From a virus: a DNA stretch of 48,091 nucleotides. Below are positions 5,667 through 20,587 of the stretch, in pieces. How positions within the stretch are numbered: the first letter of the stretch is position 1; each line of letters begins with the position of its first letter. Under the pieces are notes generated by a model that saw only the letters and a list, made by a program, of their open reading frames with translations, searched no databases and had not been told where the DNA came from. The position numbers and the translations under genes are program-made. Location of the stretch: the IMG/VR virus record IMGVR_UViG_3300046513_000115, positions 1 through 48,091 of that record, one strand, 5' to 3'.

Positions 5667-6019
5667 TGGTCGCCCTCGCGCTTGCTATCGACCCAGCGCC
5701 GGTACAGCGCTTCGAGCGGGTCCAGTGCCCGGCCACCCATGTGGCCGGCAATGCCGACCAGCATCGCGGTGTAAAGCTGATGCACGTTCATGGCCTCGCA
5801 GCCGTAGAAGGTCAGCACGCCCGCGAACGAGGAAATCACGATCTCGCCCACGATGGTGAGAATGGCTTGTTTCAGCGTCATATCGCCGGCCCTTACCTTA
5901 CGGATAAAGCGCACCGCCCCGCCCCATGCGGATAGTGCGATGACCCAGCCATACGTCAGCAGGCTGTACGAGGTCGGGTCTTTCGCGGCCTCGGCTGCTT
6001 GCCTGAGTTCTTCGTTCAT
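5663..6019 (-). CDS. LydA-type holin (holin superfamily III)
   Basis: The product is 118 residues with three hydrophobic segments: about residues 20-38 (SLLTYGWVIALSAWGGAV), 50-72 (AILTIVGEIVISSFAGVLTF) and 80-98 (LYTAMLVGIAGHMGGRAL). The blocks W-G-G-x-V-R-F-I-R-K-V-R, S-S-F-A-G-V-L-T-F and A-x-x-V-G-I-A-G-H-M-G-x-R-A are typical of P1 LydA-like holins. Holins form lethal lesions in the inner membrane and let the endolysin through. It is the first gene of the lysis cassette, 60 bases after the giant gene. Confidence 0.85.
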   Translation of the reverse strand: MNEELRQAAEAAKDPTSYSLLTYGWVIALSAWGGAVRFIRKVRAGDMTLKQAILTIVGEIVISSFAGVLTFYGCEAMNVHQLYTAMLVGIAGHMGGRALDPLEALYRRWVDSKREGDQ

Positions 6020-6079
6020 GTTCGCCCTATTGTCCCGTTCTGCGGCGATTTTAACGGTATTTTAGACATTTGCTTACAT

Positions 6080-9000
6080 CTACTTTTTCACAGATTCATT
6101 GAATACCTCAATGGCGCTGCGGTACAGGGCTTCTTCCTGCCGCTCCAAAGCGCTGAGTTGGTCGCGTTTCTGGGCCGTGGTCAGGGCCGGGTCGGCGTTG
6201 ATGTCGGCCGCCTCGTCGCGCAATGCCGCCGCCGCCTTGCCGGCCTGGGTGAACATGCGCGACAGGGAGACCAGTTCGGCCGTGCCGGGCCGGTCGAGTA
6301 GCTTGCCGGCCGCCTCGTCGTCGCCCGCCTTGCGGGCCTGCCGGAATTCGTCGGCCGCCGCGCGCGCTTCGTTGGCGAGGTCGTAGTAGCGGCCCCGGAT
6401 CGGCTTCACGTCATCGGGCTTCCAGAAGTCCTTGGCAATCGGGATGTCGCCGCTGTTCATCGAAGACCCGCCGGCCGCGAGCGCGCCCGCGCCGATGGAA
6501 TCGGTCACGAACTGGCCCAGGCCGCCGGAGTAGGTGCGCCACAGGTATTTGAGGGTTTCCGGGCTGACCTTGGTCAGGTCGTTCTCGAACTTGCCCGCGC
6601 CCAGCTTCTCGCCGCCGGCCGCGATCTGTTGCGCCAGCGCATCAAAGAAGGTGCCCTTGGTGGCGCGGAACATCTTGGCGTTGTCCGGCTGGGTCTTGCT
6701 GCGGTCGTTCTCGGGCACGATCTGGCCGCCGAACACGTTGCGGTTGGCCGCCAGTTCCGCGCCCGGCCGGATGATGGTCGGCGTGGCCGCCAGCACCGCG
6801 TCCAGCCCGTGGTTGTTGCTGTCCGGGTTGTAGAACCCGTTCAGCGGGAAGTAGGCATCCACGAACGACGACACCATGCGCACCGCCGACTTCATGGCGC
6901 TCTCGCCGCGCAGCGCCTCGGCCATGCCCACCCCGAAGGCATAGGCCGGCGCGAATTCCTGCGACAGCGGGATGTTCAGCGTGTGGTTGCCCAGGTGCAG
7001 GCGGAAGTTCTTCGTGCGCTGGTCCCAGCCGGCGCCCAGCCAGCGGTCCCGGTCGTCATCCATGCCGGCCGCCGCCGCGTAGAAGCCCAGCGCGGCCAGC
7101 ATGCCCAGCGCGGCCATGGCCTGATACTTGTGCTTGCCCTTCACCAGCGTCTGCATGGCGTTGGCCGTGCCCTGGATGGCCGGGTTCATGAACAGGTAGA
7201 TTGCGCCCAGCGCGCCGGTGGTGGTGCCCTTGCGGTCAAAGTCCACCGTCACGCGCTTGGCGGCCTGGGCAGCGCGCGCCGGGGTCTCGCCACGCTCGCG
7301 CAGCGTGATGTACAGGGCGAGGCGCAGCGCATTCTCGGTGCCCTGATTGATGACCTCGATGCCGTGGGCCATGCCGCCGACGATCTTGCGCCCGGCCACC
7401 TTGGCGGCCTTCACGCCGTGGCCGTGGGCGGCCAGCCGGCCAGCGCCGTAGGCATCCTCGTACATGCGCGTGAGGGTCTTGCCCTGCTGCTCCAGATCGG
7501 ACATCCACGATGCACCGGTCTTGCCGCCGTTGTTGCGGTACTCCTGCACGTACTGGCCGGTCTTGCCGGCGGGCGCCTTGCCGGTGGCAGCCCACTGCGT
7601 CATGGCCTTGAGCGCGGCCGGGTAGCGGGTCCACGCGCGGGCGGCCACGGCGGCGCCCTCGTTGCCGGTCATGTTGATGGTCCCGGTCAGCGCATCGCGC
7701 GCGGCATTGCGCAGGATGAAGGACGGGTTGTAGCCGGTGTAAATCTTGGACAGGTAGCGGTTCATGCCGCGCATGAATTCGAGGATCGGGTGCAGTTGCC
7801 GCGTATCGAGCGGGCGCACCTGCCGCGCCAGCGCCTCGTCGTGGAACTGCATGCGTACCGGCTGGCCCTTCACGTAGACCATGACCTCGTTGTCCTGCAA
7901 CGGCTTGTTGAACTGCTGCACGCGGTCGCCGTTCGAGTCCAGCACGATGTAGCTCTTGCCGGCCGGGCCGGCGCCCTCGATGAAGGCGTCCACCTGCGAA
8001 CGGGCATTGAAAGAGCCGATGGTCTGGTCGCCCTTGGGCCGGCTCGGGTCCACCACGTTGTAGACCTGCCCGGCCACATACCGGCCCTTGGGCGGCACGC
8101 CGATGCTCCACAGGCTCGGGTCCGGGTGCTGCGCCACCAGTGCCAGCAGGCTCTGGCGCGCAAGGTTCTTCTCGCCCACGACGACCGCTTGATCGTAGTC
8201 GCGCGCGATGTTCTCGAGGATATGTTCCTCGCGCTCATCGTGGCCCATGGCGCGCTTGATCTTCGGGCCAAATTCGCCGTCGCCCTTGAGCGGCACATAG
8301 TGCTTGTACGCCTTGGTCAGCGTGTCGTGGGTCTCCTGGTCGATCAGGCCGTAGGCTTGTTTCAGGTCCAGCGTGGCGGCGGCGATGTCGCGCGCCTGCT
8401 GGGCGATCTCGCGCAGCGGGCTGGCCAGCGGCACCTTGGCGAGAATCTTGTTGGCCTCGGCCGTGGTCATGCCGGAGCCCCCGTCCTGCATGTCCGGGTT
8501 GATCTGCGCAATGCGCTCGTTCCGTTCCTGCGCATGCTGGGCGTGCAGCAGTTCTTCCAGTTGCGCCGGCGTGAAGCCCTCCTTGGCTAGCCGGGCCATG
8601 AGCGGGCCGGTCAGTTGGCGCTGGGCGTCCTCAAGCCGCGCAGCGATGCGCCCCGGCCGGTTGGTCTCGGCGCGGTAGTAGTCGGCCAGTGCCAGATCGC
8701 CCAGGCCGGTCTGCTTCTGGATGCGCGCCTGTACCTTCTTGACGCGGTTCATGTTGTCCTGCACCGCCTCCTGCAAGCGCTCGAAGCGGGTCGGCGCGTC
8801 CGGCGTCAGGCCGGCGGCCACGGGGGCCGGGGTCGGTGCGGCCGGCGGTGCGGCGGGAGCGGTCGGCGCGGCCACCGACTGGCTGGCGGCCGGCGACAGG
8901 TCGAGGTCGTCCGGCGTGCCGCCGTCGCGGCCGGCGCGTTTGAGCGCGGCCAGCGCCAGCGCGCGCAGTTGCGGCGGCGTCACCTTGCCGACCTGCATGC

Positions 9001-12000
9001 CAAACACGCGCAGCAGCCACGCCTTGATCGCGCCCAGGGCGTCGTCCACCCAGCGCTTGACCGCCACCGGGGCCTGCTCGTATTCCTCGATGGCGTAGGC
9101 GCCGAATTCCTCCGGGTGCATGGCGTTGTTGGCGCCCACCGTATCGGCATGGCGCTGGCGCGCGAAAGCGGCATCCCAGAACTGGCGCATGCGGCCGGTC
9201 GATTGCACCGCCTGCCGTTGCAGCGCGTGCAGGCGCACCATCAGGTTCTTCCACTGCGTCTCGCCCAGCAGCGGGCGCACCCCGGCGTGGAACATCTCGT
9301 GCAGCAGCACCGGCGCGGCGCGCTTCATGTCCAGATTGCGCGCCACCATGTGGATGGTGCCGTCCGGCAGCGTGACAGCCTGCACGCCGCGCGAGGTCTG
9401 CGCCGGCACGCTGGCCGGGGTCTCGTGGATCACCAGCTTGCCAGCGTCCAGCATGCTCTGCACCAGCGGGCCGAATTCGCCGCCGGTCAGGGTCTCGCGC
9501 AGCAGTTTGGCCGCCGTGCCGTTGACGGGCTCGGGGCCGACCACGGATTGACGCGGCGCGTTCGGGGCTTCCTCCACCAGCCCGGCCGGCGCGGCGCCAG
9601 TCTCGGTCGCCACGGTCGCGGCGGCGGCGTCCGCCGACACGTCCGCGCCCTTCTCGGTGGACAGTTCGATCTCCAGCGCTTGCAGCGCGGCCATCTTCTC
9701 CAGCATTTCCTGCTGCTCGGGGAAGGGGGCGCCCAGGCGCTTGTCGATCTGCTCGATGCGGCGCTCGCTCTCGGTGATGTCGCGCTGCGCCTCGCGGCGC
9801 CACTGCTCGAGGTTGTTCACCTGATTGGCTGCGCGCGTGGCGATGCCGCCCACCGCGAGGTCCGGGTGCAGCGGGAACTGGATCAGCGGCGCCACGTCCA
9901 CCGGCAGGTCCACGCCGATGAAGGCTTGATAGCCGCCGGAGCCCTTGAGCACCGTGCCATGGAACTGCACCGGGAATCCCCCGATCTCGCCAATGGTCTC
10001 GGTGCCGGTGGTTTCGGAGCCGGTCAGGCCGGCGAACTGCTCGAATACCGCTTTGGAAAAGTCATCGCGGTTGTCGTAGGTGGTCTTGCCCAGCTTGGCC
10101 GTGAACTCGCCCGCCTTGATGGGCACTGCCTTCTTCATGGCCTTATCGAGCGCCTTGAGGCTGTCGGTCGCCGTGCGGATGCTCGCCTCGGCGATGTTCT
10201 TCTTGGCCCGCAGGCTGTTCTGGTCGCTGTGGTGCGCCTGCGCCAGCCGTTCCAGTCGGTCCACGTCCGCCTTGAGGCCGGCCAGACGCATGTAGCGCTC
10301 GTCGCCGGAGGCCAGCGCGGCGGCCATCTCGAAGGCGGATGCCTCGGACACGTCCTCGAGGGAGCGCACCGAATCATCGCCGTTCATGGCCTGCTCGATG
10401 AAGCGGGCCTTGCGACCGTTCATGCCCCACATGGTGGAGTCGTAGCTACCCTTGGTCGCCAGCGCCTGCACCGATACCACGCGGTTCTGGTTGCCCTGGC
10501 GGACAATGCGGCCCTCGCGCTGCTCCACGCTGGAAGGGAACCACGGCGCGTCAAGGTGGAACAGGTGCGACAGGCGCTTTTGCACGTTGACGCCCGTCTC
10601 CATGTCCTTGCCGCCGATCAGGATGCGCTTTTTTCCGGCGCGCATGTCCGCGAACAGCCGTTCCTTCTTGGCGTGCTGCTTGTTGTCGCGCATGAAGGCG
10701 ATGTGACCAGCCGGGATGCCGGCGTCGATCAGGCGCTTCTCGATCCACGCCTTCATGTCGAAGCCGCGCGAGGCGGCCGACTGCTCGCCCAGGCCAATGT
10801 CCGTGAACAGGATGACGCTGGAGCCCTTGATCGGGTCCACCACGCCGTTGGTGCTGTACTCGAAGTCCTTGCCCTCGTTGTAGGCCGCAATCACGCGGTC
10901 GATGGCCTGATTCAGCTTGCTGTTGGGGTCGCTGGGCATGGTCGGATCGACAAACCGCATGTCGATGGCCGAAAACCGGCCGTCCGAGATGACCTTGAGG
11001 ATGATGTCGTCGCCCGGCTTGGGCGGCCCCTTGCGGTCACGAATGGCCTTGATGCGCTGCTCCAGCGACGCCTGATACGCCTTGTAGCCCATCGGGCTGG
11101 GGGTCACGATGACCTCCCGGCCGCCGCCGGCCACGTCCGGGCGCTGCACCAGTTCCCCCAGGTTGGCGTTGGTCAGGATGTCCATGAAGGACCGCACGCG
11201 ACGCATCAGTTCCGGCACGTTCTGGAACTTGGCGAAGCGGCTGACCACTTCATAGCCGCCGGCCGCATTCTGCTCGAAGCCGGCCACCACATCCCCGTAC
11301 TGGTTGGCCCACGCATCGAACGTGTCCAGCCCATCCTCGGCCATCTGCTCGGGCTGGAAGAAGCGCTGCACCGTGTACAACTCGCCCATGGTGTTGGTCA
11401 CGGGCGTGCCCGATGCCATCACCAGCGCGCGGCCCGGCTTCATGCTGCGCAGGTACTGCGTCTTCATGAACAGGTCCATGGCGCGCTGCGAGCCGTTCGG
11501 GTCGATGCCCTTGATGTTGCCCTGGTTGGTGGCGAAGTCCAGCTTGCGGAACTCGTGCCCCTCGTCCACGTACAGGCGGTCCACCCCCAATTCCTCGAAG
11601 GTCAGCACTTGGTCCTTGCTGGCGCCCTGACGCGATTCCAGCCGGCGCTCCAGCGCCTCGATGCGGCGCTCCACCTGCTTGCGCGTGATGCGGTCCGACT
11701 TGTCCACCGTGTCGAGCGCGGCCGTCCACTCTGCGATCTGTGCCTTGATGAAGTTCGCCGTGTAGGCGTCGCTCATGCCGATGCGGCCGAACGCCGAATG
11801 GGTGATGACGATGGCGTCGGGGTTGTTCAGCGCGGCCTGCGCGACGAAGCGGCGGCGGTTATGGGTGTGGAAATTCTGCTCGTCGGCCACCATGATGTTG
11901 GCCGCCGGGTACAACTCCAGAAACTCGCGCGCGAACTGCGCCAGCATGTGGTTGGGCACCACGTACATCGGCTTGTTGGCGAGCCCCAGACGGCGCTCTT

Positions 12001-15000
12001 CCATGCCGGCCGCAATCATGGTGAAGGTCTTGCCGGCGCCCACCGCGTGCGCGAGGTAGGTGTCGCCCTCCTGCACCATGCGCCAGATCGCGCGCTTCTG
12101 GTGCGCGTAGAGGTCAAAGCGCAGCGACACGCCCGGCAGCGTCAGGTGCGAGCCATCGAACTTGCGCGGCGCGATGTTGTTGAAGTGCTCGTTGTAGTAG
12201 TTGACCAGCCGGTCGGCGCGGGTGGTGTCGGTCCAGACCCAGCGGGAGAATGCCTCGCGCATCTTGCGCGCGATATCGTTGGCCTTCTCGGTCGCCTCGG
12301 CATCCACCACAGTCTCGGTCTTGCCGGCCGACTTGACCGTGTTGGTGATGCGAATCTGCTTGTTGTTCAGCACCGCTTCGAGGATGTCCCCGGCGCGCAT
12401 GCGGTTGAAGTTGTATTCGCTCTGGTTGTTGCCGACCTGCTCGGCCGACCACGCGCCCACGGCCGGGTTGTAGGTCACGCGCACAGTCTCGCCCATTACC
12501 TCGGTGGCGAACTGCGCCACGTCCTTGGGCGGAATCCACGACTGGCCCAGCTTGACCGTAATCTCGGTCGGGCCCAGCGGCTTGGGCTGCACGGCCAGCA
12601 GCGCGTCCACGTTGCGCTGGTAGGCGCGGTCGGTCCGCGCGGCGGCCTGGGCCTCGTCCAGCTTGCGCCGCACGTTGCCCGCGAGGTATTCGTCGGCGGT
12701 CTGCCAGCCCCTGCCCGGCGCCTGATAGATGGCCGTGCCCAGCGCGTCGATGGTCTCGGCGCGGGTCATGCCGGCCAGCTTGGCCACTTCATCGAGGTCC
12801 AGCCGGCCCAGGTTGTTCAGCGAGACAAAGAGCGCATCCTGCGTGGTCTTGATCTCGGGCTCGCGGCGCTTCTCCAGCACGCGCTGGGACAGCACCGGCG
12901 CCTTGACGATCTCGCCCGATTCCTTGATGTGCTCGAGCGAGTAGGCCAGTGCCCCCTCCACGTCGAGGCGCAGCAGCGGGTCGTTCTTGAAGCGCTTCGA
13001 GATGGACGTGGTGCCGTCCGGCAATTCCCGCTCGATGGCCGTGTAGGCCAGCAGGTTGCCGTGCTTCTTGGTGAAGGTGTCGTAGGCGGCGGCCAGCGCA
13101 GCGAGCGACGCCTCCCAATTGCCGTCCGTGAGCTGGTCCAGTTGCGCCTGCTTGAGCGCGTCGCGCAGCGTCACCCAGGAAGTGAGAAACGCCTTATCGC
13201 TGGCCTTGAGCGTGATGGCCTTGCCATCGGCGCCGCGCCGCGTGGTCAGCGGCACGCCGGTGCCGCTATCCACCTGCATCAGCGTGCCATCCGGGGAAAC
13301 GTACAGGCCGCCTTCTTTCTTGTGCAACGGGTTGAAGTCCCGTTCCAGCGCCACGGCGCGCGAGGCGGCCGGCGCTTGGGCGCCCGGCTGGTAGATACCC
13401 TCGGGCAGTCGCGCCACAGCATCGCCGAACGCGGCATCCATGTCCTGGCCGGCGCGCGGCTCCACCGTGTACTCGTTGGCACGGTACATGGAGCCGGTGG
13501 TGGCGTGCTGGCCCAGCACCATCTCCGGGTGCGTCACGAAGTATTCGTTGATGGCGACCGGCGTGCCGTTCACGTCGATGGGGGTAACGTCGCGCCACGC
13601 CACGCCGTTGTCTTCCACGCCGGGGCCCTTCTTTTGCAGGAACAGCACATCCGTCACGACTTCGGTGCCGGCGTTGTCCTTGAACGCGGTCTGCGGCAGG
13701 CGAATGGCGCCCACGAGGTTCGCGCGGTCGGCAAGATACTTACGGGCCCGGTCGCTACCCTTGTCCATGGTGCCCTTGCTGGTCACGAACACCAGCATGC
13801 CGCCCGGCCGCACGCGGTCGATGGTCTTGGCAAAGAAGTAGTCATGCAGCATGAACCCCTGTTTCTTGTACTCGGGGTCGTTGCTGATGACGGTCTGCGA
13901 GAACGGCGGGTTGCCGATGGCCGCATCGAAGAAGTCGCGCGGCAGCGCCGTCTTGCTGTAGTCGCCCACGATGATGTTGCTTTCGGGGTACAGCAGCTTG
14001 GCGATGTTGCCGGTGATGGTGTCGTACTCGATGCCGGTGTACTGGCTGTTCGCGGCCATGGCCGCCGGCATGAGGCCGTTGAACAGGCCGATACCCATGC
14101 CGGGCTCGGCAATCTTGCCGCCGGCGAAGCCCATGCGGCCCAGCGCGTCGTAGATGCCGCCGATCACCCCGGCGCTGGTGTAGTGGGCGTACTGCGTGGT
14201 GCGCTTGGCCTGGGCGTATTCCTCGTCGGTCAATGCGGCCTTGAGCCGTTCGCCCAGCGCCTGCCAGCCGGCACTCTTGTACCGGCCGTACTGGTCCGGG
14301 AAGATGCCGTTGGCAATTTCGCTGGCGCCCCAGCCGGTGAAGCGCGACAACAGCTTGGCCTCGTCCGGCGTGGGCCGGCGGCCCTCGTCCATGAGGCGCT
14401 TGACCAGTTCAACGATTTCGACGTTGCGCTCGGCCGTGTCGCGCCACGAACCCGTGCGGGTCAGGTCGGCGGGTTCGATCCGGTGGTTGTTGCCGACTCG
14501 GGAGACAGCGCCGCGATGGTCTCCAGCGCCTGCGCTATCGCCACTTCCTCGGCCGTCTTCGCCGCGCTGTTCAGATTCTGCGTCCGTGCCAGCGGATTCG
14601 CCTCGAACGCGGGGCTTCCCTCGCTGACCTGCGCCGCGAGCGCGTCCTGCCGGGCGTCCGCTATCGCCTCCAGCGTCACCGCCAGCAGGTTGCGCAGGAA
14701 CTCGTTCAGCGTCCCCACTTCCTTCATGTGGTTGAACTGCCTCGGCGCCCGGTCGCGTAGCGCCTGCGTCAGCAGCGTCAATAGTTGCTTGTCCGTCATT
14801 TTCGGCGCCCTCCTGTACCTCGATTGTAGTATCTGGCGATTGGTTTGCAATGGGATATGGCTCGCCCTTCTCGCGGCGCGCCAGCATCGCCTCCACTTCG
14901 CCCATGCTCGGCGCGTCATCCACGAGTCGCTGGGTGATGGAATAGATCTCCCCCTCCAGCAGCGGCGAATCTTGCAGCGCGGCCAGCATCTGCGAGCGCG

Positions 15001-18000
15001 TGATGTCGCCGTTCATGTACGACACGACTTGCTTCTGGGCGGCCAGCAGGTCCGTGGCCTTCTGGCCCTTGCCCATCGGGATCGGGTCCGGCCAGCGGGC
15101 CTCGCCGGTCAGCTTCGGCTGCTGCTCGACGTGGCCGTTGCGGTCGCGCGGCAGGTCGTCCGTGGCATCTTCCGGCTTGCCGCCGGCCGGCCCGCCCTCG
15201 GGGATCAGGTCGCGGATGGCGTCATTGGCCGCCGCGTCATCGAGGTCTTGGTAGTAGAAATCCTCCACCGCGCTGTCGATCTGGTCCGGCGTCACGCCAG
15301 CGTCCAGCGCCTGCTGGATCAGGTCGCGGTCCAGCCGATCGTACTTGCCAGACACGGCCAGCACCGGGTGGTCGATAGCGTTGTTCGCCATGAAGAACCC
15401 GTAGCTGAACCCTTCCGGGGTCTCGCTGCGGGCATTCTTTGTCTTGAGGCTCTTGCCGCCGTAGAGCTTGTGCATCTTGGAGCCTTCGGTCGGCTCGACG
15501 GGCGCGATGGGCAGGTCGCCATTGAAGCGGCCCCAAATCAGGGTCTTCTTGGTGTACGGGTCGCCCAGGTGGTTCGGGTCGAACGACAGGCGCCACGGCG
15601 GCAGGCCGCCCAGCTTCTCGATGCGGCCCACCGGGTTCTCCAGCGCCCACACGGGCGGCTTGAAGTATTCGATAGCGGCCAGCGTCTGGTGCACCAGTTT
15701 GACCGATGCGACCGTGCGGCCGTCCGCGTCCTTGGCCGCGAAGTGACGCGCGCCGCTCGATGCAAAGTCCGTGCACGGGCAGGCGGCGAGGATGGCGTAC
15801 ACGTCCTGGCCGTCAAAGTCCCCAAACCAGTCCGAAAAGAACTCGGTGGAGAAGTTGTTCACATCCCCCACGGTCGGGTCGTCCTGGATGTCGAAGCGGT
15901 AGACCTGATACCCGGCTTCCTCCCACGGCTTGGACCACTCGCCGGACAGGTCAAACAGCGACAGCACCACGCGCTGGCTGTTCTCGCTGCGCATGGTCGG
16001 GTCGTCGCCCTGCTCGGCGGCATGGGCCTTCCAGCCCTGAATCACCTTCTTGGCCTCGGCCGGCGTCATCCAGCCGTGATCCTTATGGTAGACGCGGGCC
16101 TTGTCTTGCAGGCGGACGATATCGCCCTTGGGCGGCGCGTCAAACACGTGCGTGACCTTCTCGTCGGCCTCCACCATGCTGGCCTGGGCGGCGTTGAACT
16201 CGGTCACGATCTGGCCCAATTCGCGGTCGTCCACCCCCACCACGTGCTCGGGGGCGGTGGCCTTCTCATGGGTGGCCGGCTTGGCCTCGGCGGCCGGCGC
16301 GCGCTCATCCGCGAGGCCATCGGTGCGCATGTCGCGGATGCGCATGACGGCTTCCGACAGGTTGATGGTGGCCAGCGTGTCGGGCACGTCCTTGCCGTCC
16401 AGCAGGCGGCGCACGTTATAGACGATGATGCCATCGCGCTGCTTGGTCATCTCGGCGTGGATTTCGCCACGCTCGCCCACGTCCGCATTCCATTCGCGCG
16501 GGTTCGTGCCATTCATCTCCAGCCCGGCATCGCGCATGGCGCGGGCGAAGTCCTTCACCGGGTCCGCTTGGGCGGCCTTCACATCCGGGTTCTTCGGCAG
16601 CGTGTCGCCTTCGGCGGCCAGTTCCGTGCCCGCCCTCAACAGGTCGCCGCGCATGTCGTCGGTCATATTGGACCACGTGTGCAGTGGGTTATCGCGCTTG
16701 CCGGCGGCCTTCTGCACGGCGCTGCGTGCCCACGGCGTCAGCGCATTCCACCATGCGCTGGCGGTCGGGTAGCTGCTCGGGCGCGGGGTGCGCTCGGCGG
16801 CCTGCATGTCAGGGGTCTCCGGCGGGGTGTCGCCTTCGGCGGCCTCCATTTCCTTGACCAACTTTTCCTGGCGCTTCACGCGCTCGAGCAGACGGTCATC
16901 GACCACATTGCCTTGCGCCTCGACTTGCGTGCGGAGGTCGATCAGATCATTGCGAGCGTCCAGCAGCGTGTAGCCGGCATCACCCGGCTGGGCACGGCGC
17001 GGCGTTTCGGAAGCCACCGGGGCGGTTTCCGGGGTCTTGATGGCTTGACTTTCGGTCTTCGGCGTGATTTCCCAGCGCACCTTACCGGTCTGGGTCGCCT
17101 CATAGCCGTCCGCCTTCTTCTTGGCGATATAGTCGTCGGCCTTCGCCTTGGTGCCGAACCACTTCCCGGCATGCGGGTTCGCGGCCGGCTCGGGCTGTTT
17201 TTTCGCCTTGACCTCGGCATCGGCCTCAGCATCAGCGGCGGCCGAGGCCGTGCCATGGACCGCCGGCACGGCCAGCGGCCCGGCCTCGGCGTCCTTCGCC
17301 ATGCCCTTGATGGTCTCGCGCACCTTCTTGCCGTGGGCGCGCACCTCGTCCTCGGTCCAGCCGGTGGCGTCCTGCACGAATTTCACGTAGTCCGCGTCGC
17401 GCTTGCTCGGCGTGGTCTGCGAGGCGATGAACGCGGCGCGGTCGATATCGTTATCGAACGTGGGGGTGAACTGCTTGTTGCCGTGGGCGTAGCGCGGCTT
17501 GGCGCCGGCAAGGTCCGGGCTCAGTGCAGGGTGGCCGCCTGCCTTTGCGCCTTCGCCTCGGCCAGCATTTCCTGGCTCGCGCACAGCCGCAGCGCCGGCA
17601 GAACCGGGTTGGTTTGCAGGGCCGGGTGCGGGGGCTGGTACGGGTTCAGCAGCCGCCACATCAGCACGTCCTGAATCTGCTCGTCCATCGGCAACGGGTC
17701 CATTCCCTTCCTCCAGTGGTTTCACGTCGAACACCGCGCGGCCGTCTTCCTCGCGCTCCACAGCTTGATGCGGCTGGCCGGTGCTGCGCGCAGCGGCGCG
17801 CACGGCGTCGTTCGCGTCGGATTGCTTCACATAGGCGCCGCTCGCGGTGCGCTCGGCCGGCGGCTCCTGTTCCTCGGCGGCCACGGCCACGGGCGCCGGG
17901 GCGGCCTTGCGGCGCTCGATCTCGGCTTCGACCTTGCGGCGCTCGTCGGCGAACAGCTTGCTGCTGCCGCCGTTGAGCTTCTTCTGCTGGGCGATGTACT

Positions 18001-20587
18001 GCATGCGCTCGCGCAGTTCCGGCTCGGTCATCTCGGCAAGCGGCTTGGCCGGGGTCAGCATCGGCGCGGCCTCGCCCGGCGCCTGTTCAGCCTTCACAGG
18101 CGCCGGGGCGCTCTCGCCGGCGGGGGTATTCGATAGCGCGTAGTTGCCCAGGTCGTCGGCGGCGATCACACCCTCGTCAGCCATGCGCCGGACGAAGCGG
18201 TCCGCCGCCGTATAGCCCACGCGCAGCTTCTGCATGATGGCGTTGGGCGAGATGGCGCCGCCCTGGCGCACGAAGTCCACCGCCGCCTGATAGCGCGCGT
18301 CGTTGCTCTCCGGCGCCTTGGGCTTGGCCGTGGTCGGCGCAGTCGGGGTCGGCGCATCAGCAGTGGCCTCCACATCACCCGACGAACTCGGCGTTTCAGC
18401 CGGTTCCGTACCCGATTCTGCGAACAGATTCCCTTGTGAATCAACGGGTTGTGTTTCATCAACCCCAGTCGACAAGGCGGCCACATCGAGCCCGTCCGGG
18501 CCCACGGTAATGCCGTAGGTCTGGCCGTCCTCGCCCTCCACTTCGGCGGTCGGCGCGGGCGCAGTGCCCTTCTGCACGGCGCGGCCGATGGGGCCGCTCG
18601 GCGGGGCCGGCGGCGTGGCCGGGGCATTCGGGTTGCGCCCGCCGAACGCGGCGGCCTTCGCCAGCGCGTTCTCGCGCGCCTGCTCGGCGGCCAGTTCCTG
18701 CGTGGCCTGGGTCTGGCCGCCTTGCAGGTGGCGCACGCCAGCACTCACGCCGGTGGTGCCGCCCATCATCAGACCGCCCTGCATCATGGTCTGCGCGAGG
18801 GTATCGCCGGCTTGGCTCAGGTATTGCGCCAGCCCCGCTTCGAGGTTGGTGCCCACCCCCGGAACCTTGTCGGTCAGGAACTGGCCCAGCGTGGTCAGTT
18901 GCTCGCCGGGGATTTCCTTGAGCGTGGCTTTGGCGAGCGTGGTGGCGATATCGCGCGTGCCGGCGCCGCGCGCGGCCATCTTGAGCGCTTCCATCGTGTT
19001 GCCCAAGCCGAATTTCTCGCCCAGCACTTCGAAGGCGCCGAAGATCGCCGCGCGGGTCGCGGCTTGGCCGGGGTCGATGCCCTGCGCGCGGGTCTGGCCG
19101 TACTCCTGGCCGAACGTCTGCGTGAACATGGCCGCCAGCGGCACGGCAGAGCCGCCCGTTGCCACGCCACCCAGCAAGGCCGGCAGTTGCTGGGCGATGC
19201 TGGAGACCGCGCCCTCGAAGTTGCGTTGCAGCGCGTCTGGGCTCTCGCCGATGGCAGTCGTGCGTGCCTGCGACGACTTGATACCGCGCCGCGCAGTCTC
19301 GGCGGCATCATTGGCGCCCAGCAGTTCGGCGGTGGCCTGGGCCAGCCCCAGCGAGCCGACCTTGTACCCCTCGTAGCCCTTCACGGCGGCGCGGATGGCC
19401 GGGTGCGACAGCGGGCCCTTGTTAAACGCCTGCTGCGCCTGAAAATCGAAGTCCGACTGGCCCATCGTGCCCAACTCGGTGCCGGGCACAGTGCCGCGCT
19501 CGGCGCCGGTGCGGCCGAAACGCTCGGCGGTCTGGCCGTTGGCGCCAGCACGGGCCAGCCGGCGGGCGCGGCCCTCGGCCGTGGTGTCCAGCAGGTCAGC
19601 CGTGGGGGTGCGCGTCGCATCCTGCTGCACGCCCTGCATCTCGCGGGCCAGTTGGCCCACGGCGCCGGGGTCGCGGACCATGTTCGCGCGCTGCTCGGGC
19701 GTGGCCGCGTCGTACTGGCGCTGCACGGCGGCGCGGAACTCCGGGCGCACCGGGGCAAGCGACTGGTTGCGCGGCGCGGGCAGGTCGCGGCCGGTCATGA
19801 CGCCAGCGGCGCCGCCCTTGCCGATGGTGCCGGGCTCGTCGGTGGCGGCCTGGGCGGGTGCCTGCTGCTCGAGCCGGGCCGCTTCTTCCAGAGTCAGCAC
19901 CTTGTAGCGGCCGGGTTCCTCGGCATCGGCGGCCTGCTGCGCCTCGATGCGTGCGGCTTCCTCGGGGGTGATGGCCTTGTAGCGGCCGGGCTCGTCGCGG
20001 TTCAGCTTCGCTTCGACCTTGGCCGGGTCGTTCAGACCCAGGCGCGCGGCGATGCTCTTGGCATAGTCGCGCGTGGCGATCAATCCGTCATTGGTATCAG
20101 GAATCTTCCCGGCCTTGAGGTCATCCCGGTCATACCCGGCGTGGTAGCCGGCGGCCAGCAGTTCAGGGTCGCGGGTGTTGAGCGCCTTCTGGCCGTAGGC
20201 GATGTATTTAAGCCCCGCCTCCATGTTCTTCCACGGGTCGCGCTGGCCGGCGTAGCTGCCCATGACGCCCTTGTAGGTGTCGGGCATGACCTGAAAGCCG
20301 CCCACGGCGCCCTTGGGGCTGTCCTTCGTGTTGCTGTTGCGGCCGGATTCCTGCGACCACAGCGCGAGCGCGAAGTCGGGATCGACATCCATCTCTTTGG
20401 CTTTGCGCACCACGTCATCGGCGGTCGGGCCGGCGGTGCGGGGGAGGCCGCCGGCCGCCTGGGTGGCGGCGACGGCAGTCGGGGTGCGCTCGGTGGCAGG
20501 CGCCGGAGCCGGCGGGGCCATCGCGGCCAGATCGGCCGCCCCGGCGGAATAAATGGCGTCTAGTTCACTGTCGAGCTTTTTGGCCAC
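6080..20587 (-). CDS. Giant polyvalent virion protein: transglycosylase, FtsK-gamma-like, C5- and N6-methyltransferases, SNF2 helicase, zincin, LPD38-like
   Basis: The product is 4,835 residues, starting at GTG with AAGGGG upstream. Domains in order: SLT lytic transglycosylase, about 55-190, catalytic Glu80 and motif GFQVMPDT; a long hydrophobic/helical region, 440-620; FtsK-gamma-like winged helix, about 762-820; small polyvalent-associated segments, 1033-1180; C5-cytosine methyltransferase-like domain, about 1535-1740, with PC motif at 1604-1605 and ENP near 1650; N6-adenine methyltransferase, about 2040-2330, with EPGMGIG near 2161 and NPPF at 2226; SNF2-type helicase, about 2830-3400, with VGAGKT (Lys2853), DEGH at 3008-3011 and QREGRIVRQG near 3360; HEMFH zinc peptidase at 3763-3767; LPD38-like C-terminal region with a membrane segment near 4490-4510. 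Proteins of this class (Bcep22-like giant protein, P1 DarB, the polyvalent proteins of phages and conjugative elements) enter the cell with DNA, open the wall and protect or process the incoming genome. That role is inferred here. Two other genes are nested in its linkers. Confidence 0.93.
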   Translation of the reverse strand: MAKKLDSELDAIYSAGAADLAAMAPPAPAPATERTPTAVAATQAAGGLPRTAGPTADDVVRKAKEMDVDPDFALALWSQESGRNSNTKDSPKGAVGGFQVMPDTYKGVMGSYAGQRDPWKNMEAGLKYIAYGQKALNTRDPELLAAGYHAGYDRDDLKAGKIPDTNDGLIATRDYAKSIAARLGLNDPAKVEAKLNRDEPGRYKAITPEEAARIEAQQAADAEEPGRYKVLTLEEAARLEQQAPAQAATDEPGTIGKGGAAGVMTGRDLPAPRNQSLAPVRPEFRAAVQRQYDAATPEQRANMVRDPGAVGQLAREMQGVQQDATRTPTADLLDTTAEGRARRLARAGANGQTAERFGRTGAERGTVPGTELGTMGQSDFDFQAQQAFNKGPLSHPAIRAAVKGYEGYKVGSLGLAQATAELLGANDAAETARRGIKSSQARTTAIGESPDALQRNFEGAVSSIAQQLPALLGGVATGGSAVPLAAMFTQTFGQEYGQTRAQGIDPGQAATRAAIFGAFEVLGEKFGLGNTMEALKMAARGAGTRDIATTLAKATLKEIPGEQLTTLGQFLTDKVPGVGTNLEAGLAQYLSQAGDTLAQTMMQGGLMMGGTTGVSAGVRHLQGGQTQATQELAAEQARENALAKAAAFGGRNPNAPATPPAPPSGPIGRAVQKGTAPAPTAEVEGEDGQTYGITVGPDGLDVAALSTGVDETQPVDSQGNLFAESGTEPAETPSSSGDVEATADAPTPTAPTTAKPKAPESNDARYQAAVDFVRQGGAISPNAIMQKLRVGYTAADRFVRRMADEGVIAADDLGNYALSNTPAGESAPAPVKAEQAPGEAAPMLTPAKPLAEMTEPELRERMQYIAQQKKLNGGSSKLFADERRKVEAEIERRKAAPAPVAVAAEEQEPPAERTASGAYVKQSDANDAVRAAARSTGQPHQAVEREEDGRAVFDVKPLEEGNGPVADGRADSGRADVAAAEPVPAPAPGPANQPGSAGAAAVREPGNAGRGEGAKAGGHPALSPDLAGAKPRYAHGNKQFTPTFDNDIDRAAFIASQTTPSKRDADYVKFVQDATGWTEDEVRAHGKKVRETIKGMAKDAEAGPLAVPAVHGTASAAADAEADAEVKAKKQPEPAANPHAGKWFGTKAKADDYIAKKKADGYEATQTGKVRWEITPKTESQAIKTPETAPVASETPRRAQPGDAGYTLLDARNDLIDLRTQVEAQGNVVDDRLLERVKRQEKLVKEMEAAEGDTPPETPDMQAAERTPRPSSYPTASAWWNALTPWARSAVQKAAGKRDNPLHTWSNMTDDMRGDLLRAGTELAAEGDTLPKNPDVKAAQADPVKDFARAMRDAGLEMNGTNPREWNADVGERGEIHAEMTKQRDGIIVYNVRRLLDGKDVPDTLATINLSEAVMRIRDMRTDGLADERAPAAEAKPATHEKATAPEHVVGVDDRELGQIVTEFNAAQASMVEADEKVTHVFDAPPKGDIVRLQDKARVYHKDHGWMTPAEAKKVIQGWKAHAAEQGDDPTMRSENSQRVVLSLFDLSGEWSKPWEEAGYQVYRFDIQDDPTVGDVNNFSTEFFSDWFGDFDGQDVYAILAACPCTDFASSGARHFAAKDADGRTVASVKLVHQTLAAIEYFKPPVWALENPVGRIEKLGGLPPWRLSFDPNHLGDPYTKKTLIWGRFNGDLPIAPVEPTEGSKMHKLYGGKSLKTKNARSETPEGFSYGFFMANNAIDHPVLAVSGKYDRLDRDLIQQALDAGVTPDQIDSAVEDFYYQDLDDAAANDAIRDLIPEGGPAGGKPEDATDDLPRDRNGHVEQQPKLTGEARWPDPIPMGKGQKATDLLAAQKQVVSYMNGDITRSQMLAALQDSPLLEGEIYSITQRLVDDAPSMGEVEAMLARREKGEPYPIANQSPDTTIEVQEGAENDGQATIDAADAGATRPGAEAVQPHEGSGDAERVPAQPAGGDAGGDSGRPAGRARGAGQRGKPRVRGESAGTDAESEQRGEDGRGSGDSAGAGDHRGAVSRVGNNHRIEPADLTRTGSWRDTAERNVEIVELVKRLMDEGRRPTPDEAKLLSRFTGWGASEIANGIFPDQYGRYKSAGWQALGERLKAALTDEEYAQAKRTTQYAHYTSAGVIGGIYDALGRMGFAGGKIAEPGMGIGLFNGLMPAAMAANSQYTGIEYDTITGNIAKLLYPESNIIVGDYSKTALPRDFFDAAIGNPPFSQTVISNDPEYKKQGFMLHDYFFAKTIDRVRPGGMLVFVTSKGTMDKGSDRARKYLADRANLVGAIRLPQTAFKDNAGTEVVTDVLFLQKKGPGVEDNGVAWRDVTPIDVNGTPVAINEYFVTHPEMVLGQHATTGSMYRANEYTVEPRAGQDMDAAFGDAVARLPEGIYQPGAQAPAASRAVALERDFNPLHKKEGGLYVSPDGTLMQVDSGTGVPLTTRRGADGKAITLKASDKAFLTSWVTLRDALKQAQLDQLTDGNWEASLAALAAAYDTFTKKHGNLLAYTAIERELPDGTTSISKRFKNDPLLRLDVEGALAYSLEHIKESGEIVKAPVLSQRVLEKRREPEIKTTQDALFVSLNNLGRLDLDEVAKLAGMTRAETIDALGTAIYQAPGRGWQTADEYLAGNVRRKLDEAQAAARTDRAYQRNVDALLAVQPKPLGPTEITVKLGQSWIPPKDVAQFATEVMGETVRVTYNPAVGAWSAEQVGNNQSEYNFNRMRAGDILEAVLNNKQIRITNTVKSAGKTETVVDAEATEKANDIARKMREAFSRWVWTDTTRADRLVNYYNEHFNNIAPRKFDGSHLTLPGVSLRFDLYAHQKRAIWRMVQEGDTYLAHAVGAGKTFTMIAAGMEERRLGLANKPMYVVPNHMLAQFAREFLELYPAANIMVADEQNFHTHNRRRFVAQAALNNPDAIVITHSAFGRIGMSDAYTANFIKAQIAEWTAALDTVDKSDRITRKQVERRIEALERRLESRQGASKDQVLTFEELGVDRLYVDEGHEFRKLDFATNQGNIKGIDPNGSQRAMDLFMKTQYLRSMKPGRALVMASGTPVTNTMGELYTVQRFFQPEQMAEDGLDTFDAWANQYGDVVAGFEQNAAGGYEVVSRFAKFQNVPELMRRVRSFMDILTNANLGELVQRPDVAGGGREVIVTPSPMGYKAYQASLEQRIKAIRDRKGPPKPGDDIILKVISDGRFSAIDMRFVDPTMPSDPNSKLNQAIDRVIAAYNEGKDFEYSTNGVVDPIKGSSVILFTDIGLGEQSAASRGFDMKAWIEKRLIDAGIPAGHIAFMRDNKQHAKKERLFADMRAGKKRILIGGKDMETGVNVQKRLSHLFHLDAPWFPSSVEQREGRIVRQGNQNRVVSVQALATKGSYDSTMWGMNGRKARFIEQAMNGDDSVRSLEDVSEASAFEMAAALASGDERYMRLAGLKADVDRLERLAQAHHSDQNSLRAKKNIAEASIRTATDSLKALDKAMKKAVPIKAGEFTAKLGKTTYDNRDDFSKAVFEQFAGLTGSETTGTETIGEIGGFPVQFHGTVLKGSGGYQAFIGVDLPVDVAPLIQFPLHPDLAVGGIATRAANQVNNLEQWRREAQRDITESERRIEQIDKRLGAPFPEQQEMLEKMAALQALEIELSTEKGADVSADAAAATVATETGAAPAGLVEEAPNAPRQSVVGPEPVNGTAAKLLRETLTGGEFGPLVQSMLDAGKLVIHETPASVPAQTSRGVQAVTLPDGTIHMVARNLDMKRAAPVLLHEMFHAGVRPLLGETQWKNLMVRLHALQRQAVQSTGRMRQFWDAAFARQRHADTVGANNAMHPEEFGAYAIEEYEQAPVAVKRWVDDALGAIKAWLLRVFGMQVGKVTPPQLRALALAALKRAGRDGGTPDDLDLSPAASQSVAAPTAPAAPPAAPTPAPVAAGLTPDAPTRFERLQEAVQDNMNRVKKVQARIQKQTGLGDLALADYYRAETNRPGRIAARLEDAQRQLTGPLMARLAKEGFTPAQLEELLHAQHAQERNERIAQINPDMQDGGSGMTTAEANKILAKVPLASPLREIAQQARDIAAATLDLKQAYGLIDQETHDTLTKAYKHYVPLKGDGEFGPKIKRAMGHDEREEHILENIARDYDQAVVVGEKNLARQSLLALVAQHPDPSLWSIGVPPKGRYVAGQVYNVVDPSRPKGDQTIGSFNARSQVDAFIEGAGPAGKSYIVLDSNGDRVQQFNKPLQDNEVMVYVKGQPVRMQFHDEALARQVRPLDTRQLHPILEFMRGMNRYLSKIYTGYNPSFILRNAARDALTGTINMTGNEGAAVAARAWTRYPAALKAMTQWAATGKAPAGKTGQYVQEYRNNGGKTGASWMSDLEQQGKTLTRMYEDAYGAGRLAAHGHGVKAAKVAGRKIVGGMAHGIEVINQGTENALRLALYITLRERGETPARAAQAAKRVTVDFDRKGTTTGALGAIYLFMNPAIQGTANAMQTLVKGKHKYQAMAALGMLAALGFYAAAAGMDDDRDRWLGAGWDQRTKNFRLHLGNHTLNIPLSQEFAPAYAFGVGMAEALRGESAMKSAVRMVSSFVDAYFPLNGFYNPDSNNHGLDAVLAATPTIIRPGAELAANRNVFGGQIVPENDRSKTQPDNAKMFRATKGTFFDALAQQIAAGGEKLGAGKFENDLTKVSPETLKYLWRTYSGGLGQFVTDSIGAGALAAGGSSMNSGDIPIAKDFWKPDDVKPIRGRYYDLANEARAAADEFRQARKAGDDEAAGKLLDRPGTAELVSLSRMFTQAGKAAAALRDEAADINADPALTTAQKRDQLSALERQEEALYRSAIEVFNESVKK
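14461..14799 (-). CDS. Nested (overprinted) small helical protein inside the giant gene
   Basis: The product is 112 residues in the +1 frame relative to the giant gene, opposite giant residues about 1930-2042. The ATG at 14799 has AGGAGG nine bases upstream. In this frame 97 of 112 codons end in G or C by hand count, against about 54 of 112 in the giant frame over the same bases. The product is a normal-looking soluble protein: MTDKQLLTLLTQALRD, then FNHMKEVGTLNEFLRNLL, an Ala-rich helix, and VAIAQALETIAAL. The giant frame here reads only Gly/Ala/Arg/Asp low-complexity linker. Overall build recalls small helical proteins that accompany methylase-helicase proteins in mobile elements, but I do not recognise the family. 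Function unknown. Confidence 0.78.
   Translation of the reverse strand: MTDKQLLTLLTQALRDRAPRQFNHMKEVGTLNEFLRNLLAVTLEAIADARQDALAAQVSEGSPAFEANPLARTQNLNSAAKTAEEVAIAQALETIAALSPESATTTGSNPPT
17521..17703 (-). CDS. Nested (overprinted) small protein inside the giant gene
   Basis: The product is 60 residues in the +1 frame relative to the giant gene, opposite giant residues about 962-1022. The ATG at 17703 has GGAGG six bases upstream; a second in-frame ATG follows five codons later. By hand count 55 of 60 codons end in G or C, while the giant frame has about 24 of 60. The sequence (DEQIQDVLMWRLLNPYQPP, then helical LRLCASQEMLAEAKAQRQAA) has normal complexity, whereas the giant frame reads a GRADSGRADV / PAPAPGP / GNAGRGEGAK-type linker. 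No family is recognised and no membrane segment or signal is seen. Function unknown; the codon pattern argues that it is a real protein. Confidence 0.7.
   Translation of the reverse strand: MDPLPMDEQIQDVLMWRLLNPYQPPHPALQTNPVLPALRLCASQEMLAEAKAQRQAATLH

Follow-up and report, generated by a model that had tools for sequence, protein, structure and literature searches.

Can a second protein be encoded out of frame inside the gene of a giant phage protein, and if so, what might it do? This question is raised by positions 14461-14799, minus strand, of a 48,091-nucleotide virus sequence (IMG/VR record IMGVR_UViG_3300046513_000115, analyzed at full length and hereafter called the window). The window is from a Bcep22-like (Lessievirus) phage, and among annotated phages it is closest to the Burkholderia lessieviruses JC1, DC1, CSP3, BcepIL02 and BcepMigl. 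The host gene encodes a protein with SLT (transglycosylase), C5-MTase-like, N6-MTase, SNF2-type helicase and LPD38 regions. It fits the DarB-like class, in which an N6-methylase is followed by an SNF2-type helicase together with phage polyvalent domains. The corresponding protein of JC1 (gp69) is present in virions (PMC9144972). The features on which the argument depends are as follows.

6080-20587, minus strand: giant host gene, encoding a 4835-residue DarB-like large polyvalent protein (phrog_10089, E=0, and other domain matches)

14809-14814, minus strand: AGGAGG, Shine-Dalgarno sequence of nested gene 1 (read from the sequence; Shine-Dalgarno sequences also occur in homologues)

14461-14799, minus strand: nested gene 1, +1 frame, encoding a 112-residue protein predicted to be helical (translation, homologues and same-place +1 ORFs, substitution pattern, AlphaFold2)

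14464-14800, minus strand: stretch of the giant gene over nested gene 1, translated in the giant frame as a low-complexity linker and free of stops in 77 distinct sequences

13628-14251, minus strand: N6-adenine methylase region, beginning just past nested gene 1 (phrog_9133, residues 2113-2320; Pfam Eco57I, residues 2219-2292)

Nested gene 1 is wholly contained in the giant ORF, on the same strand and in another frame. Translation gives 112 residues and a stop (MTDKQLLTLL...TTTGSNPPT*), and the start is +1 relative to the giant frame (5788 mod 3 = 1). The DNA 5' of the start reads ATCGAGGTACAGGAGGGCGCCGAAA-ATG, so that AGGAGG ends nine bases ahead of the ATG. Over the overlap, 97 of the 112 nested codons end in G or C, against 54 of 112 in the giant frame. 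The initial annotation, made without database searches, had given the same 112 codons, frame and AGGAGG spacing, and the same counts of G/C-ending codons (87% against 48%); all of these held exactly, the counts on a recount. Its description of the giant frame as a Gly/Ala/Arg/Asp linker also held, the linker being read here as rich in G, A, R, D, E and S, and its helical product held as a prediction. In addition, a 3019-residue open frame lies antisense to the giant gene at 8615-17674 on the plus strand, which is likely a by-product of high G+C content and codon usage. The deposited annotation of Pseudomonas phage Itty13 (L034) likewise has three large ‘hypothetical’ genes antisense to its giant gene.

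We then asked how much weight an open frame of this length can bear. When the giant codons were reshuffled synonymously, a stop-free +1 frame of the nested length was obtained with P=0.67 in the window phage, and with P values of 0.14-0.98 in its relatives. ORF length was accordingly dropped as evidence for nested gene 1; because an open +1 frame is probable by chance, the case rests on comparison. The peak of third-position G/C follows the giant frame on both flanks and moves to the nested frame in the overlap in all 26 of the 26 homologues. Across six pairs of sequences, the wobble position of the giant frame accounted for 22-31% of substitutions in the overlap versus 48-81% downstream (Fisher p 6e-4 to 1.3e-9). 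The same shift, 35% versus 66%, was seen in the low-divergence pair formed by DC1 and IMG/VR locus L010/L020, which we take to be Bcep22 (Fisher p 0.02). Within the overlap, the third position of the nested frame carries the most substitutions, tying with the giant wobble position in DC1/BcepMigl. These counts are pairwise rather than tree-based and assume independence of sites; within those limits, they indicate that purifying selection acts on the nested frame.

The giant frame was assessed over the same bases. Among 77 distinct nested sequences we observed no giant-frame stops, against 228 expected if synonymous choice were constrained by the nested frame only, and the third frame, used as a control, showed no depletion (468 stops observed against 315 expected). 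The 77 sequences are related and hence are not 77 independent trials; several single low-GC sequences individually gave P below 0.005 for the absence of giant-frame stops. With no stops where 228 were expected, selection clearly acts to keep the giant frame open as well, and therefore this is true dual coding. The earlier proposal of codon-level selection on the nested frame is thus supported by the substitution pattern, whereas the accompanying idea that the giant linker merely tolerates the nested frame held only by half, since the giant frame too is kept open by selection. Two observations had been named that would refute the nested gene, namely stop codons in the nested frame of close relatives and equal substitution rates at its three codon positions. 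The relatives carry no such stops, and the rates are unequal, with the nested third position highest and the giant wobble position low, so that neither observation refutes it.

Conservation extends well beyond the lessieviruses. A tblastn search with nested protein 1 matched Lessievirus records, each at 53-59% identity (E about 1e-20 to 1e-27), and all of these homologues are in the +1 frame with an ATG and a Shine-Dalgarno sequence. More widely, a +1 ORF with an ATG, and usually with a Shine-Dalgarno sequence, occupies one spot in giant genes, just ahead of the N6-methylase domain; this holds for phages of Burkholderia, Erwinia, Klebsiella, Pseudomonas, Agrobacterium, Ochrobactrum, Vibrio, Microcystis and Pseudoalteromonas, and for about 80 IMG/VR contigs. 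Homologues or same-place +1 ORFs of nested gene 1 were thus found in more than 80 phage giants. Among distant giants, a +1 ORF lies at the equivalent place in every one whose start is within the data; some of these products resemble each other weakly, and sequence comparison detected no relationship between the nested protein and the +1 ORF of Pseudomonas phage 8P. The window protein shares only about 11-19% identity with a second type, found in Erwinia and Klebsiella phages, and the two types are linked by profile comparison (hhalign probability 90, E 1.5e-6).

A scan with the second-type protein returned 62 IMG/VR loci, 60 of which have the nested +1 ORF inside an open giant frame; the other two are a contig end and the phage PBC5, discussed below. 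In most of these loci, stops lying 2-40 codons upstream close the nested frame. The start codon and ribosome-binding site of nested gene 1 are conserved among homologues, and a Shine-Dalgarno match, mostly 5-10 bases ahead of the start, is present in nearly all homologues with a placed start (this tally leaves out a few loci whose match began within the ORF, so that the start was misplaced). Nested gene 1 is annotated in none of the phage records that we opened, including that of JC1. A pattern scan of viral contigs with a single nested protein gave no match, and an alignment was required for detection. Taken together, the frame, start and product that the relatives share, the distribution of substitutions over codon positions and the switch in GC phase go far beyond chance. 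On this comparative evidence, and without direct detection of the protein, we consider it very likely that 14461-14799 (minus strand) is a protein-coding gene nested out of frame in a DarB-like gene, with both frames under selection.

What kind of protein is this? AlphaFold2 modeled nested protein 1 with a pLDDT of 85.6 and helices at residues 3-17, 19-28, 31-58 and 69-96. No family for the window protein was found in PHROGs, Pfam or NCBIfam, and Foldseek found no match to the model below E 1 in the PDB. The best VIA Z score, 7.0, lies within the range of common helical arrangements; weak fold matches to IcmS/IcmW-like proteins and PG0816 were not used. There was thus no clear match among solved or viral structures, and no function was revealed. 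The Erwinia-type protein has a distant profile likeness, over residues 2-63, to TnpV (Pfam PF14198; best E 1.8e-4, 7 of 11 members), a small mobile-element protein with a role in excision postulated from homology with lambda Xis (PMC3158075). However, the protein of phage PEp14 scored 20.7 bits, under the Pfam cut-off of 27, and the window protein did not match PF14198 at all. A TnpV search of control genomes gave no match anywhere and is hence uninformative. The model predicts a small, folded helical protein; the likeness to TnpV is distant.

A GC-phase scan of the window giant gene showed two switches only, one at nested gene 1 and one at about codons 900-1040. The second corresponds to the following features.

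17710-17714, minus strand: GGAGG, Shine-Dalgarno sequence of nested gene 2 (read from the sequence)

17521-17703, minus strand: nested gene 2, a 60-residue ORF in the +1 frame over another linker of the giant gene (GC-phase scan, same-place counterparts, wobble suppression)

Counterparts of nested gene 2 with Shine-Dalgarno sequences lie at the same place in other lessieviruses, Erwinia phages and Vibrio phage VvAW1, and giant wobble changes are suppressed over it (Fisher p 5e-7 to 0.02). Nested gene 2 is less secure than nested gene 1, because its sequences differ more between groups. Both nested genes are in the +1 frame. Further GC-phase dips were observed at codons 3420-3560 of the giant gene of locus L001 and codons 3500-3660 of that of L036; these may possibly be a third nested or overlapping feature, with no clear ATG-started ORF established. 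A bolder reading is that giant polyvalent genes systematically hide small accessory genes in linker frames (at least two in the window gene, always +1 and each just ahead of a conserved domain), that these slots take up and exchange small mobile genes, and that the products are made as a set with the injected protein. We lean slightly against it at present.

One homologue of the nested protein stands outside any giant gene. It occurs in a prophage-like region of a Burkholderiaceae genome (L119), with no giant gene or methylase nearby, and it forms part of a pair.

5970-6194, plus strand, and 6397-6723, minus strand (L119 coordinates): free-standing small genes, one per nested-protein type, on opposite strands about 200 bases apart

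The free-standing copy resembles the phage genes at the DNA level from the ATG, give or take one base, to the vicinity of the stop, and here a TAA interrupts the giant frame. The adjoining gene encodes a 74-residue protein of the Erwinia (TnpV-like) type and has a strong Shine-Dalgarno sequence. The pair sits between two anti-repressor-like fragments, and an integrase ORF lies about 4 kb away. No stand-alone homologue was found on the plasmids searched. An even sample of genomes from the class and phylum also gave no homologue; that search matched nothing anywhere and is thus uninformative.

We propose the following model for nested gene 1. Ribosomes would start at its own Shine-Dalgarno sequence and ATG on the giant-gene mRNA, and the nested frame would yield a separate helical protein of 11-12 kDa, which has not been detected directly. 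Ribosomes in the giant frame would translate this stretch into a flexible linker joining the N-terminal part to the methylase-helicase part. The nested protein may then serve the giant antirestriction protein, which is carried in the virion and injected, as an accessory or as a partner in assembly, and nesting would tie its presence and expression to those of the giant protein. The accessory role is suggested because each phage giant gene that we examined has a +1 ORF at this spot. We regard it as the likeliest single guess and no more than that, as it is an inference resting on co-location only, and an independent role of the nested protein is equally possible.

In that alternative, the nested gene is real, the protein acts independently of the giant (for example, in regulation or host takeover), and nesting is nothing more than compaction. 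It is favored by the L119 homologue, which has no giant gene and lies beside a second, TnpV-like gene and anti-repressor-like fragments in an integrase-bearing region, and by the distant likeness to the small mobile-element protein TnpV. Against it, 60 of the 62 IMG/VR loci are within a giant gene and none is stand-alone, the place before the methylase is fixed, and expression would follow that of a virion protein. This reading, too, falls short of being probable.

A further alternative concerns history rather than function. An N-terminal gene, a small gene and a methylase-helicase gene may have fused through loss of the first stop, so that the small gene became trapped within the newly formed linker. 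In keeping with this, plasmid relatives such as those of the Ti plasmid and Martelella keep the methylase-helicase as a separate gene, starting shortly before the methylase match, and the small gene is able to stand alone (L119). However, the IMG/VR loci included no phage in which the three genes are separate, the plasmid methylase-helicase relatives that we inspected lack the nested gene, and the data are equally compatible with a linker that already existed and took up a mobile small gene. We consider origin by fusion possible but short of probable.

It could also be argued that the nested frame is no separate gene but an alternative C-terminus of the giant N-terminal half, made by frameshifting. 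In Sinorhizobium phage PBC5 (L038/L070), the nested domain directly continues the annotated upstream protein, orf33, and PHROG family 938 has this domain C-terminally. The length of the PHROG 938 profile (2185) is that of orf33; the ‘endolysin’ label that relatives match through this family probably comes from the upstream part and is uninformative on the nested domain. In PBC5 the frame is shifted only upstream of the nested gene, as a single-base indel could explain, and an alignment with Agrobacterium phages agrees with such an indel. The PBC5 giant gene is thus probably split by a one-base indel, which puts its N-terminal half in frame with the nested ORF, and the in-frame fusion was set aside on this account. 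In addition, nearly all homologues have their own ATG with a Shine-Dalgarno match, the nested frame is stopped 2-40 codons upstream in most loci, and the stand-alone copy begins at the equivalent ATG. The frameshift explanation therefore seems very unlikely.

Finally, the view that the frame is a chance product of high G+C content and giant-gene composition, with the codon signature as a by-product, is all but excluded: a stop-free frame of such length is indeed probable under synonymous shuffling and the window holds many spurious ORFs, but the ATG, Shine-Dalgarno sequence and product are conserved across diverse phages, the suppression of giant wobble changes already refutes chance, the frame is present in lower-GC phages where stops would be expected, and a stand-alone homologue exists.

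How does the nested gene, as we read it, compare with known systems? ComS, encoded within srfAB of Bacillus subtilis, is similarly a small protein in a distinct frame of a very large gene, with expression from the same operon (PMC12915044); however, it is an unrelated protein of one bacterial operon, whereas the phage nesting recurs at one site across many genera and a second nested ORF lies in the same gene. Rz1 embedded in Rz, the spanin pair found in Bcep22-like phages too, offers another case of whole nesting with its own start (PMC9144972). Rz1 is a lysis lipoprotein, whereas the product of nested gene 1 is predicted to be a soluble helical protein; inspected by eye, nested protein 1 (MTDKQLLTLLTQALRDRAP...) has no hydrophobic N-terminus or lipobox, and it is not of the Rz1 class. 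DarB of phage P1 is the archetype of the methylase-helicase part of the giant (PMC5512222), and no nested homologue was found in P1 darB or its surroundings. Ulx, a small Dar protein encoded beside darB in P1, was considered as a homologue of the nested protein; this is unsupported, as the nested profile did not detect it. Same-strand nested genes are thus already known; this case stands apart in that it recurs at a single linker position in different phage genera and is dual-coding. The earlier statement that nested genes were undescribed for this giant family is consistent with the open-access literature that we searched, outside which most subscription journals fall.

These results give a well-known phage group, the Bcep22-like phages and their relatives, a further conserved protein that annotation has missed, and indicate that a long linker in a giant injected protein can be encoded by DNA that codes in two frames. 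Gene finders pass over such frames, and therefore virion proteomics limited to annotated genes would miss the product.
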